Part shown: in pieces, positions 17,557 through 30,737 of the stretch
Position numbering within the stretch: the first letter of the stretch is position 1
How the letters are laid out: each line of letters begins with the position of its first letter
DNA from: Polaromonas sp.
GTDB lineage: Bacteria; Pseudomonadota; Gammaproteobacteria; Burkholderiales; Burkholderiaceae_C
DNA length: 34,286 bases
Direction of reading: 5' to 3'
Assembly (NCBI GenBank): GCA_021153985.1
Contig: JAJKJM010000200.1
Span: 1 to 34,286, forward strand
Made by a program: the position numbers and the translations under genes
Notes under the pieces: model-generated
The model's input: the letters and a program-made list of their open reading frames with translations, nothing else
What the model was told of the DNA's origin: nothing
Database searches by the model: none

Positions 17557-18423
17557 ATGTTTAAATTGACCAGCCTCAACCTCAACGGTATCCGCTCCGC
17601 AGCCAGCAAGGGCCTGCAGGACTGGGTCGCCCAGTCCATGCCGGATTGTATTTGTGTGCAGGAGCTCAAAGCCCAGGCCGCCGACATGAGCGGCCGGTTT
17701 GAAGAAATCGCCGGCCTGAAGGGCCACTTCCATTTCGCCGAGAAAAAAGGGTACTCGGGCGTGGGCGTCTACACGCGCCATGAGCCCAGCGATGTGATCG
17801 TAGGCTACGGCTCGACCGAATTCGACGCCGAAGGACGCTATGTGGAGCTGCGCTTTGACCGGCCAGGCCGCAAGCAAAGCCCCAAGCTCTCCATCATCAG
17901 CTGCTATTTTCCGAGTGGCTCGTCGGGCGAAGAACGGCAGGCCGCCAAGTTCCGCTTCCTGGCCGAGTTCTACCCGCGCCTGCTGGGCCTGAAGGAAACG
18001 CGCGACTTCGTGCTGTGCGGCGACATCAACATCGCGCACCAGGAAATCGATCTGAAGAACTTCAAAGGCAACAAGAAGAACAGCGGCTTCTTGCCGGAAG
18101 AACGCGCCTGGATGACGGAGCTGCTGCGCGATGCGGAACTGGTAAACGAAGCGGCAGAAGAACTGACCCAACGCACAAGCCCCTCGGTCAAGGGCGGCGG
18201 CATGGTGGACGTGTACCGCAAGCTGAAGCCCACCACGACCGACGAGGCCTACACCTGGTGGAGCAACCGCGGCCAGGCCTACGCCAAGAACGTAGGCTGG
18301 CGGCTGGACTATCACCTGGCTACGCCCGCCTTTGCGGCGCTGGCGCGCAGCGAGCACATCTACAAAGAGCAGCGTTTTTCGGACCACGCCCCAATGAGTG
18401 TGGACTATGAGTTTCAGCTCTGA
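17557..18423 (+). CDS. xth: Exodeoxyribonuclease III (AP endonuclease)
   Basis: A 288-residue exonuclease III-family enzyme that incises abasic sites and removes blocked 3' ends in base-excision repair. Metal and catalytic residues are visible: SLNLNGIRSA at the start, Glu36 in CVQELKAQ, Asp156/Asn158 in LCGDINIAH, the RLDYHLATP motif and Asp276-His277 in FSDHAPMS. The ATG at 17557 matches the normal family start (MFKLTSLNLNG). It diverges from pyrE with only 10 bases between the starts, so each gene's promoter must lie inside the other's coding sequence. Confidence 0.95.
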   Translation: MFKLTSLNLNGIRSAASKGLQDWVAQSMPDCICVQELKAQAADMSGRFEEIAGLKGHFHFAEKKGYSGVGVYTRHEPSDVIVGYGSTEFDAEGRYVELRFDRPGRKQSPKLSIISCYFPSGSSGEERQAAKFRFLAEFYPRLLGLKETRDFVLCGDINIAHQEIDLKNFKGNKKNSGFLPEERAWMTELLRDAELVNEAAEELTQRTSPSVKGGGMVDVYRKLKPTTTDEAYTWWSNRGQAYAKNVGWRLDYHLATPAFAALARSEHIYKEQRFSDHAPMSVDYEFQL

Positions 18424-18432
18424 CCCCCGTTC

Positions 18433-18511
18433 AGCCTCACTGCGTGTAGTCTGCTCCCCCCTTCCAGGGGACGGCGCCTGGGGCCGGCAAAGCCGGACCC
18501 GCGGCCCCCAC
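18433..18511 (+). repeat. Family I palindromic repeat, copy C
   Basis: GCCTCACTGCGTGTAGTCTG, a CCCC-rich/GGGG hairpin, then GGCCGGCAAAGCCGG and CCCGCGGCCCC. It starts 10 bases after the exonuclease stop, between convergent genes. Confidence 0.85.
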
Positions 18512-18550
18512 TGGTGAATACCTCGTTAGTTACGCCCTGAACTCTTCATG

Positions 18551-18644
18551 CCAGCATGAGCCGCGGAACCGGCTTTGCCGGGCCGCAGGGCGGGCGGCCC
18601 CTCGGGGGGCAGGAAGTTACGCGAAGCGAACGACCGTGGGGGCC
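18551..18644 (-). repeat. Family I palindromic repeat, copy D
   Basis: The plus strand reads CCAGCATGAGCCGCGGAACC, then GGCTTTGCCGGGCCGC, a GGCCCCTCGGGGGG block and GCGAAGCGAACGACCGTGGG. It is inverted relative to copy C, so the pair forms a compound element that fills the gap between the convergent xth and receiver genes and probably ends both transcripts. Confidence 0.85.
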
Positions 18645-28793: not shown

Positions 28794-29417
28794 ATGAGCA
28801 CAGCCGGCACGCCCACACCCGTCAATCCGCCTCAGGGGTTTTTCCCCTCCACCGAAGAACGGATTCCGCTGCCCGCCCGCGGCGCCATGTCGCCGGCGCA
28901 GCGGGAAGCCGCCGACGCCATCATCGCCGGGCCGCGCAAGGCGGTGTTCGGCCCCTTTATTCCCCTGCTGCGCAGCCCGCAGCTCATGGGCCGTATCGGC
29001 GACGTGGGCGCCTACCTGCGCTTTGAAAGCGCACTGGACGCGCGCATCCGCGAGCTCGCGACCTGCGTGGCGGCCCGCCATACCGCCAACCAGTTCGAGT
29101 GGGTGATGCATGCGCCCCTGGCCGTAGCCGCGGGCGTGGCCCAGGCCACTGTGGATGCGATTGCCGAAGGCAGGCAGCCGCGCGGCATGGCCGACGATGA
29201 AGCCGTGGCGCTGGACCTCACCTTCGAAGTGCTGAGGCAGCACGGCTGCTGTGACGCCACCTATGCCGCAGCGGTGAAAACCTTTGGCGAACATGGTGTG
29301 GTCGAGCTGGTGAGCCTGGTCGGCTATTTTGTGATGGTGTGCTGGGTGATGAATGTGGCGCGCACGCCAGCCCAGGGCAAACCGGGCGTTGCGCCCCTGT
29401 CGGCCTTCCCGGCCTAA
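28794..29417 (+). CDS. Carboxymuconolactone decarboxylase (CMD) family protein
   Basis: A 207-residue soluble protein of the CMD/AhpD-like helical fold. The core RELATCVAARHTANQFEWVMH near 85-105 matches the family pattern of CMD-like proteins. The redox CXXC of AhpD is absent, so an alkylhydroperoxidase role is unlikely; the single Cys is in ATCVA. The start is the ATG at 28794 with AGGAAA 6 bases upstream; the longer frame to 28686 would run over the terminator. Its stop codon overlaps the stop of the convergent waaF by 3 bases. Function beyond the family is unknown. Confidence 0.85.
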   Translation: MSTAGTPTPVNPPQGFFPSTEERIPLPARGAMSPAQREAADAIIAGPRKAVFGPFIPLLRSPQLMGRIGDVGAYLRFESALDARIRELATCVAARHTANQFEWVMHAPLAVAAGVAQATVDAIAEGRQPRGMADDEAVALDLTFEVLRQHGCCDATYAAAVKTFGEHGVVELVSLVGYFVMVCWVMNVARTPAQGKPGVAPLSAFPA

Positions 29418-30514
29418 GACACCGGCGGCAGTGCCGCCAGCACGCGGTCGGCGCCGATGTCGTTAAGGCAACGCGTGTGGCCCAAGGGGCACACGCGCTC
29501 AAAGCAGGGCGCGCAGTCCAGCGGCGGCTGGTAGGTCACATCGGCCTTGAGCCACAGTACCACCGCCCTGTCGCTCAGGGGCGGCGTATGCAGCGGGCTC
29601 GACGATCCAAAAATCGCGGCCTGCGGCACACCGAAAGCGGCGCCCACATGCATCAGGCCTGAGTCGTTGCTGACGGTGCTGTGGCTGGCGGCGATCAGGC
29701 ACAGGGCCTGCACCAGTGAGGTCTTGCCCGCGAAGTTCAGGCATTTTCCAGGCCGCGCCGCATTCACTGGCGCGGCGATTTCGTCGCACAGTGCCGCCTC
29801 TTTGCCCGAGCCGAGCAGCACCACCGGCAAGTCCAGCCGCGAGGCGAGTTCCGAAAAATGGCGGGCGGGCCAGCGCTTGGCCGGGCCGTATTCAGCGCCG
29901 GGCGCGAACACGTGGAAACCGCTGCGCTGCAAGCCCAGCGCCGTCAACGTCTCATCAATTTCAGCCGGCGACATCTGCAATTGGGGCCGGTCTTTGTCGA
30001 GATCCGTATCACCGCTCAGCGCGGAGTAAAACGCCACCATGGGCGGCTTGTTCTTGGGGTTCTTGAGCCGGCGCGTGAGCAGGCCTACGCGCGCCTCGCC
30101 AAAGTAACCGATGCGCTCCGGGATGCTCGCCAGAAACGGCAGCAGCGCGCTTTTCAGCGAATTGGGCAGGACATAGGCCTTGTCGAAGCGGCCTTCGATG
30201 CGCTTGGCGATTGCGCGGCGCTCGCGGAACTGCAGGCCGCCGTGGGCAAAAGGAAATTCAATGACCTCTGCCACCTGCGGCATGGCGCGGTACACCGGCG
30301 CCACCCATGGCAAAGCCCCCACCGTGAGGCGCTCGCCGCGCGCATGCAGCCGGCGCAGCAGCGGTTCGGTCATCACCGCGTCCCCGATCCATTGCGGTGC
30401 GATTATTAACGATTCCCCCCCGATGCGGCCTTCGGCCGCCTCCCCCCCTGGGGGGCGCCGCTTGCGGCCCGGCAAAGCCGGTTCCGCGGCGGCTGCTGGA
30501 AGGGGGCCAGCCAT
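29414..30514 (-). CDS. waaF: ADP-heptose:LPS heptosyltransferase II
   Basis: A 366-residue family 9 glycosyltransferase that adds the second L-glycero-D-manno-heptose to the lipid A-Kdo core at the cytoplasmic face of the inner membrane. Typical segments: SLIIAPQWIGDAVMTEPLL, FAPGAEYGPAKRWP (the substrate-binding loop) and SNDSGLMHVGAAFGVP with the following FGSSSPLHTPPL. Oddity: the family normally starts a few residues before LIIAPQWIGD, but no start codon lies there. The nearest ATG in frame is 30514, and residues 5-34 are translated from a Family I repeat (PAAAAEPALPGRKRRPPGG...). A TTG inside the repeat is an alternative. The ATG lies 1 base after the zinc-finger gene's stop. Confidence 0.92.
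   Translation of the reverse strand: MAGPLPAAAAEPALPGRKRRPPGGEAAEGRIGGESLIIAPQWIGDAVMTEPLLRRLHARGERLTVGALPWVAPVYRAMPQVAEVIEFPFAHGGLQFRERRAIAKRIEGRFDKAYVLPNSLKSALLPFLASIPERIGYFGEARVGLLTRRLKNPKNKPPMVAFYSALSGDTDLDKDRPQLQMSPAEIDETLTALGLQRSGFHVFAPGAEYGPAKRWPARHFSELASRLDLPVVLLGSGKEAALCDEIAAPVNAARPGKCLNFAGKTSLVQALCLIAASHSTVSNDSGLMHVGAAFGVPQAAIFGSSSPLHTPPLSDRAVVLWLKADVTYQPPLDCAPCFERVCPLGHTRCLNDIGADRVLAALPPVS
30414..30500 (+). repeat. Family I palindromic repeat, copy E, forming the start of waaF
   Basis: GCGGCC-TTC-GGCCGC, a CCCCCC-TGGGGGG hairpin, then GCGGCCCGGCAAAGCCGG and TTCCGCGG: the same modules and order as copies B and C. It lies inside the waaF reading frame, upstream of the conserved N-terminal strand. 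Confidence 0.85.
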
Positions 30515-30515
30515 G

Positions 30516-30737
30516 CTAGTGGCCGGCGCCGAAGTGTTCGCCCGCCTTGAGCTGGTAAACAGTGCCGCAATACGGGCAGGTGGCCTTGCCGGCGTCAGCG
30601 ACACCCAGGTAGACCTTGGGATGGCTGTTCCACAGGGCCATGTTGGCCTTGGGGTTGGGACAGTACACCCCTCCCTGGCTGTTCAGTTCGCTGGCAAGCA
30701 GCTCAACCACCGCCCTGGGTTTGACATTGTTGCTCAT
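30516..30737 (-). CDS. CHCC-type zinc-finger domain protein
   Basis: A 73-residue protein with the CHCC zinc-finger pattern: Cys26 (VYCPNPK), His39 (NSHPKVYL), Cys54 and Cys57 (TCPYCGTVY). This small family is common in proteobacteria, often next to ilvE and waaF; a related mitochondrial protein is a complex I subunit. The start is the ATG at 30737, 46 bases after ilvE, and the stop is 1 base before the waaF ATG. It is probably co-transcribed with both. The biochemical role is not known. Confidence 0.9.
   Translation of the reverse strand: MSNNVKPRAVVELLASELNSQGGVYCPNPKANMALWNSHPKVYLGVADAGKATCPYCGTVYQLKAGEHFGAGH

Follow-up and report, generated by a model that had tools for sequence, protein, structure and literature searches.

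An interspersed palindromic repeat in frame at the N-terminus of waaF in Polaromonas and one other genus

Organisation of the waaF locus

The window, by which is meant the whole stretch of 34,286 nucleotides that was analysed, corresponds to contig C200. The draft genome to which it belongs (4.51 Mb in 230 contigs, 88.9% complete) has close relatives that include named members of Polaromonas such as Polaromonas sp. YR568 (locus L031), with a WaaF core that is 91% identical. Its minus strand carries waaF, coding for heptosyltransferase II, with a gene for a zf-CHCC zinc-finger protein immediately upstream, and an ilvE-like gene of the class IV aminotransferases (Table 1). The waaF product matched the TIGR02195 model over residues 36–362 with a score of 316 bits against a cut-off of 134.6 (E = 2.8e-94), and was thereby confirmed as a WaaF. 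Alignment with the structure of Escherichia coli WaaF (1PSW; E = 2.2e-64) placed residue 4 of the latter opposite residue 36 of the present protein, which is the first Leu of the conserved core, a net gain of 32 residues. The core itself consists of 331 amino acids and is both intact and conserved, and since its opening motif, LIIAPQWIGD, is largely invariant across 49 aligned proteins, it must be translated.

As the first-pass annotation had pointed out, this motif has no start codon in its vicinity. Followed upstream on the minus strand from the core Leu codon (30409), the waaF frame meets no ATG, GTG or TTG closer than a TTG at codon −22, and then continues, again as previously read, through a palindromic repeat to an ATG at codon −35, separated from the stop codon of the zf-CHCC gene by the single base 30515. 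A further in-frame GTG at −65 falls inside the zf-CHCC gene, and no good Shine-Dalgarno sequence was seen ahead of the ATG when judged by eye. Because the ATG and about five codons stand outside the repeat, the start itself is not repeat-encoded: of the repeat-derived extension of about 34 residues proposed earlier, the extension is retained but its start is not taken from the repeat, which encodes about 31 of the residues.

Table 1. Coordinates of the features at the waaF locus and the basis on which each was assigned.
Feature	Position in window	Strand	Basis and remarks
Aminotransferase class IV gene, ilvE-like		minus	PF01063
zf-CHCC zinc-finger gene upstream of waaF	30516–30737	minus	PF10276; stop TAG 30518–30516
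waaF (heptosyltransferase II) ORF including N-terminal extension	29414–30514	minus	366 aa; TIGR02195, Glyco_transf_9 PF01075
Conserved WaaF core, first residues LIIAPQWIGD	29417–30409	minus	Protein alignment and homology to 1PSW
Likeliest waaF start, ATG	30512–30514	minus	(A/G/T)TG at the equivalent place in 9/9 in-frame repeat loci
Alternative TTG within repeat	30473–30475	minus	Not conserved among repeat loci
Palindromic repeat, in-frame sense	30415–30499	minus	85 nt, 82% GC; edges approximate, 3' edge possibly to 30410; alignment of own-genome copies, nhmmer
Repeat hairpin 1 (GCCGC.GCGG..CCGGC / GCCGG.CCGC..GCGGC)	30457–30493	minus	RNA fold, pair counting
Repeat hairpin 2 (C-run / G-run)	30442–30455	minus	RNA fold, pair counting
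Repeat hairpin 3 (GCGGCC GAA GGCCGC)	30425–30439	minus	Pair counting
GAA TCG (E-S), matching codons 3–4 of the M-P-E-S start in L002 and L003	30410–30415	minus	Sequence comparison

The repeat and its family

With a GC content of 82% against 64% for the window, the repeat belongs to a family that yielded at least 46 matches in the source genome at E ≤ 0.01, a count that is a lower bound as 40 of the 120 first-look candidates were scored. Pair counting over the proposed hairpins gave 98.3% paired cells, and in hairpin 3 two pairs were altered on both sides among seven waaF copies; since 27 of 500 shuffles reached the same number of both-side changes, covariation is weak evidence for the structure. 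The folding energy of the repeat RNA was not unusual relative to shuffled sequences (z = −1.44 and −1.13), and an Rfam search returned two matches, both far under their gathering scores.

Two further copies in opposite orientation, 37 nt apart, are present elsewhere in the window (18423–18513 and 18551–18613), and similar opposed pairs were recorded on other contigs (L158, L172 and L176). Other copies overlap 43 long ORFs, of which 20 were scanned and 14 found to contain a Pfam domain: in each of these 14 a start codon comes after the repeat, or at its edge (the GTG of L268), so that none needs the repeat to be read within the protein. Among the copies looked at, the in-frame case at waaF is unusual. 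The gene in L268 (minus strand) shares its type of N-terminal sequence with one in L256 (plus strand) from a second genome, a Fer2_4 domain being found in L268, and in both genomes the gene appears to begin at a GTG supplied by the edge of a repeat copy in antisense orientation.

Recurrence in relatives

waaF was matched in 74 of 87 genus genomes, in 80 loci kept from a GTDB scan, and in 159 of the 300 genomes of the family, where a large share of the matches were to distant glycosyltransferases only. Starts were read from part of these matches, the 214 usable loci reducing to 196 distinct ones, with the truncated loci L094 and L108 excluded from the waaF counts. Using nhmmer, the repeat was detected no more than 260 nt upstream of the core in 31 of the 196: in eight it is in sense orientation and in frame, in 22 it is antisense and upstream of waaF's own start, and in one (L018, which has an antisense hit as well) it is in sense orientation but upstream of the gene's own ATG. 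A shortened copy in L125, under the nhmmer threshold, was added by eye, giving nine in-frame loci out of 196, namely L001 (the present locus), L006, L037 (= L116), L042 (= L137), L112, L117, L125, L132 and L191, the last from a genus other than Polaromonas.

All nine loci have a canonical start just before the repeat, ATG in L001, TTG in L006 and GTG in the remaining seven, located at codon −35 relative to the core in seven loci, at −36 in L042 and at −19 in L125. In L006, L037, L112 and L132 it is the sole ATG, GTG or TTG in the whole open frame, while further candidates make the start less certain in three others: L042 has additional GTGs in frame at −45 and −27, L125 has an ATG at −49, and L117 has numerous possible starts higher upstream. 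The waaF frame is kept although the distance from the zf-CHCC stop to the start, counted by eye where that stop was seen (eight loci), lies anywhere between 1 and 10 nt (1, 1, 1, 1, 2, 7, 9 and 10 nt). A further group is represented by three nearly identical loci (L088, L090 and L210), which contain a remnant of the repeat, read as ...ATGRFGGES, with an ATG at −15.

The eight in-frame loci other than L001, together with the constant length of the full waaF copies described below, lend support to the repeat-encoded N-terminal extension suggested by the first-pass annotation. It had been reasoned that relatives free of the repeat but showing the same extension would count against this origin; a search for the extension's peptide motif gave 11 matches among the 196 loci, eight with a full or shortened repeat and three with the repeat remnant, and missed L042, the peptide of which is diverged.

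Length control and selection

The open frame alone is weak evidence of translation, as many copies in the source genome are open in all three sense frames: over about 84 nt, 22, 24 and 19 of the 36 scored copies (of 40) are free of stops in the respective frames, and this line of argument was dropped. The length of the repeat was compared between fixed anchors, and proved to be 66 nt in all seven full waaF copies (the present one and L247–L252). A scan of 52 loci gave 26 other copies that contain these anchors, in which the length runs from 61 to 68 nt, with 8, 12 and 6 copies in the three remainder classes modulo 3. Relative to the seven, the waaF copy of L125 is different in length by 48 nt and that of L137 by 3 nt. 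Nine copy pairs were found at sites common to two genomes as judged by matching flanks, and of the seven that were measurable, four differ by 1–2 nt. A constant length at waaF is what selection for keeping the frame would predict, with the qualification that the waaF copies, being related, do not count as independent cases.

Neither the distribution of variable columns by codon position (5, 7 and 7 of 26 each) nor the substitution rates in the repeat (dN = 0.104, dS = 0.146, dN/dS = 0.71; first 100 core codons, dN = 0.087, dS = 0.803) gave any indication that the peptide itself is under selection. That the repeat DNA is conserved was also considered as a mark of a special role at waaF, and this argument was dropped: elsewhere, at sites common to two genomes, the copies reach about the same level of conservation (85–97% for nine pairs, with flanking matches at 72–91%), so the low dS of the repeat is not special to this gene.

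Probable translation start of waaF and proposed point of insertion

Judged from the sequence comparisons, waaF is very probably translated from the ATG at 30514, with the in-frame repeat adding some 31 residues that are predicted to be disordered and that the enzyme would tolerate. Initiation would probably be by ribosomes finishing the zf-CHCC gene one base upstream, although such coupling would not be general, since in L117 no zf-CHCC gene was seen in the approximately 200 nt read upstream of waaF while the repeat and its GTG start are kept. The three-hairpin repeat, in frame directly behind the start, most likely became inserted after codon 2 of an older start, and the peptide that it adds appears barely constrained residue by residue, what is kept being the reading frame and the repeat DNA. 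In a structural model from 49 aligned proteins, residues 1–29 had pLDDT values below 50, and the confident core began with the strand at residues 33–38; since the tail is of low confidence and 1PSW joins the alignment only at residue 36, the tail is probably a floppy passenger and would leave the enzyme unaffected.

The nearest relatives without a sense repeat, L002 and L003 (91% identical), start with ATG-CCY-GAA-TCR-CTC (M-P-E-S-L), a type of waaF start present in five of the 196 loci (these two and the similar L014, L182 and L139). The repeat loci read (A/G/T)TG-CC[T/A], then the repeat, then GA[A/G] or GCN, TCN and TT[A/G], with exceptions at codon 2 in L001 (ATG-GCT), L117 (GTG-TCT) and L006 (TTG-GCC). 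Because these nearest relatives begin M-P-E-S-LIIAP, a sequence of this kind was probably split by the repeat between its second and third codons, and the ATG would be the old waaF start. No clean empty site was found among the waaF loci read.

It is quite possible, if not the course of events that we favour, that the repeat landed just upstream of the E-S codons and destroyed the original ATG, a start in the spacer being recruited in its place; the extension would then still be translated. Almost every relative that was read has a different zf-CHCC/waaF spacer. In 22 of the 31 loci with the repeat, it is antisense and comes before the start of waaF itself. Two copies elsewhere (L152 and L156) likewise end in the G-run plus GAATC, and E-S may accordingly be repeat-derived. 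Such a displacement of the start is less readily reconciled with the GTG-CC[T/A] (M-P) that precedes the repeat in L112, L116, L132, L125, L137 and L191 and matches the M-P of L002, L003, L014 and L182, all four without an in-frame repeat, an argument limited by the mismatches at codon 2 in L001, L006 and L117.

It is improbable that the repeat is untranslated and that WaaF starts from a non-canonical codon by the G-run (ATC, ATA or ATT at approximately 30424–30401). Relatives may use starts of this kind: a recognisable zf-CHCC end was present in 173 of the 196 loci, 90 of these ends lay within 40 nt of the core, and 14 of the 90 loci lack an ATG, GTG or TTG within 15 codons. An ATC or ATT is also found at the third core codon in all nine repeat loci, as is expected from the conserved Ile. 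Against this, the repeat loci have no upstream candidate codon in common (ATC, CAT, TCC or TTC at −5), starting at core codon 2 or 3 would lose conserved residues, and there would then be no need to keep the length and frame of the repeat. Translation from the ATG through the repeat is accordingly preferred.

The 14 loci in question are L065, L071, L072, L083, L085, L091, L096, L101, L103, L107, L141, L143, L214 and L234, among which L071, L085, L101, L143 and L234 have a canonical start further up, and the other nine none in the open frame. The His codon of the upstream EHF is CAT, which places ATT in the waaF frame, in 10 of 13 of these loci versus 16 of 59 with a canonical start (Fisher p = 0.0013, or 0.005 after grouping of relatives by eye, which controls for relatedness only partly; L234 and the 17 loci where this codon is a different one or is missing were excluded). 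In L091 and L096, CTG is present in place of ATT. There are thus hints, from sequence comparison, that AUU or CUG may serve as the waaF start in some relatives, and as some apparently have no canonical start, finding no other canonical codon in a frame falls short of strict proof.

Translation from the TTG within the repeat at 30475, giving an extension of 22 residues, was put forward in the first-pass annotation as an alternative, and is very unlikely to be the main route: an in-frame TTG occurs at −22 in L001, L117 and L191 (three of the seven with a start at −35), but the same codon is TCG or CCG in L006, L116, L112 and L132, while an upstream (A/G/T)TG is present in each. An assembly or sequencing artefact, or a decaying gene, can hardly be entertained despite the draft state of the genome, since the same in-frame arrangement in nine of 196 loci makes a sequencing accident unlikely, and speaks against the local error near 30410 that had earlier been considered, and the core remains intact and conserved.

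History of the waaF repeat

A C6-N-G7 signature in hairpin 2 is common to the full waaF copies and absent from all 26 other copies, which suggests a single origin of the full waaF repeat allele. On a quick waaF tree (390 nt), the nine loci are scattered, accounting for nine changes of which at least five are forced by well supported branches. Placing all nine in one clade was rejected (AU p = 9.6e-12), while neither {L037, L112, L117, L125, L132} (p = 0.226) nor {L001, L006} (p = 0.858) was rejected when held together; the tree with the latter held even outscored the unconstrained one, which means that the quick tree falls short of the optimum. As the nine loci are not one clade, the arrangement has been acquired or lost repeatedly, or been exchanged, and many losses, exchange by recombination, and repeated insertion of one subfamily are all possible histories.

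Gene conversion with other copies as the source of the similarity was not supported by the best matches in each genome. With a consensus of the waaF copies as the query, which favours those copies, the best match was the waaF copy in six of eight genomes (90–99%, other listed copies there being at about 88–91%); in the exceptions, G052 and G085, the waaF copies are shortened or diverged.

More speculatively, the repeat and its start may form a structured cassette that was captured once in waaF and passed among species and genera by recombination in the conserved zf-CHCC and waaF flanks, the repeat being kept at 84–97% DNA identity while the surrounding gene diverged. Were this so, one stretch of DNA would be under selection twice over, for its hairpins and for its role as the in-frame start of a protein.

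The zf-CHCC/waaF junction

The junction between the zf-CHCC and waaF genes collects this repeat family in both orientations (31 of 196 loci). Other short repeats are also found there: 12 of the 196 loci have a palindrome of the GGGGTCAGA type, which L047 reads as MIKELGSDSNS, and 6 of the 196 have a repeat of the CAAGCTCAGGG type. The junction is a place of repeat accumulation and start-site change, and gene callers that favour a start close to the conserved core may put that of waaF in the wrong place.

Comparison with known repeats

A literature search on WaaF N-terminal extensions, and on REP sequences as in-frame starts, found nothing on point. The nearest described repeat found was the BRE, a GC-rich interspersed element of about 90 bp with its highest count (29) in Polaromonas sp. 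JS666 (Hot et al. 2011, PMC3110155). The section on BREs in that paper describes them as mostly intergenic, with some that overlap gene ends or sit wholly within coding sequences, and it includes no case at waaF and no comparison of an in-frame copy between species. The waaF repeat agrees with the BRE in length (about 85 nt, against 75–91 bp), high GC content (82%) and multiple copies (at least 46), a likeness, by description, of size, composition and copy number.

The RPEs of Rickettsia, small palindromic repeats that are read in frame within conserved protein genes, the product of which is retained (reviewed in PMC2229807 and PMC10969869), offer a second comparison, the RPE-bearing gmk being translated and active with a changed substrate affinity (same sources). 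At the level of sequence, the waaF case likewise presents a genome-wide repeat family read in frame within a conserved gene; the likeness is one of description, in another organism and with a repeat of another size, and unlike the RPEs the waaF repeat follows immediately on the start of a single gene, and does so in several species. Intragenic ERIC, Correia and YPAL/RU elements are also described as small repeats fused in frame with other ORFs (PMC2229807), and resemble the waaF repeat, by description, in that in-frame fusion.

In-frame fusion of small repeats being already known from these accounts of RPEs and of BREs inside genes, the waaF repeat represents a well-supported further instance: a case from the Betaproteobacteria in which a small palindromic repeat joins the N-terminus of a core enzyme in several species, with copies at other sites available as a length control.
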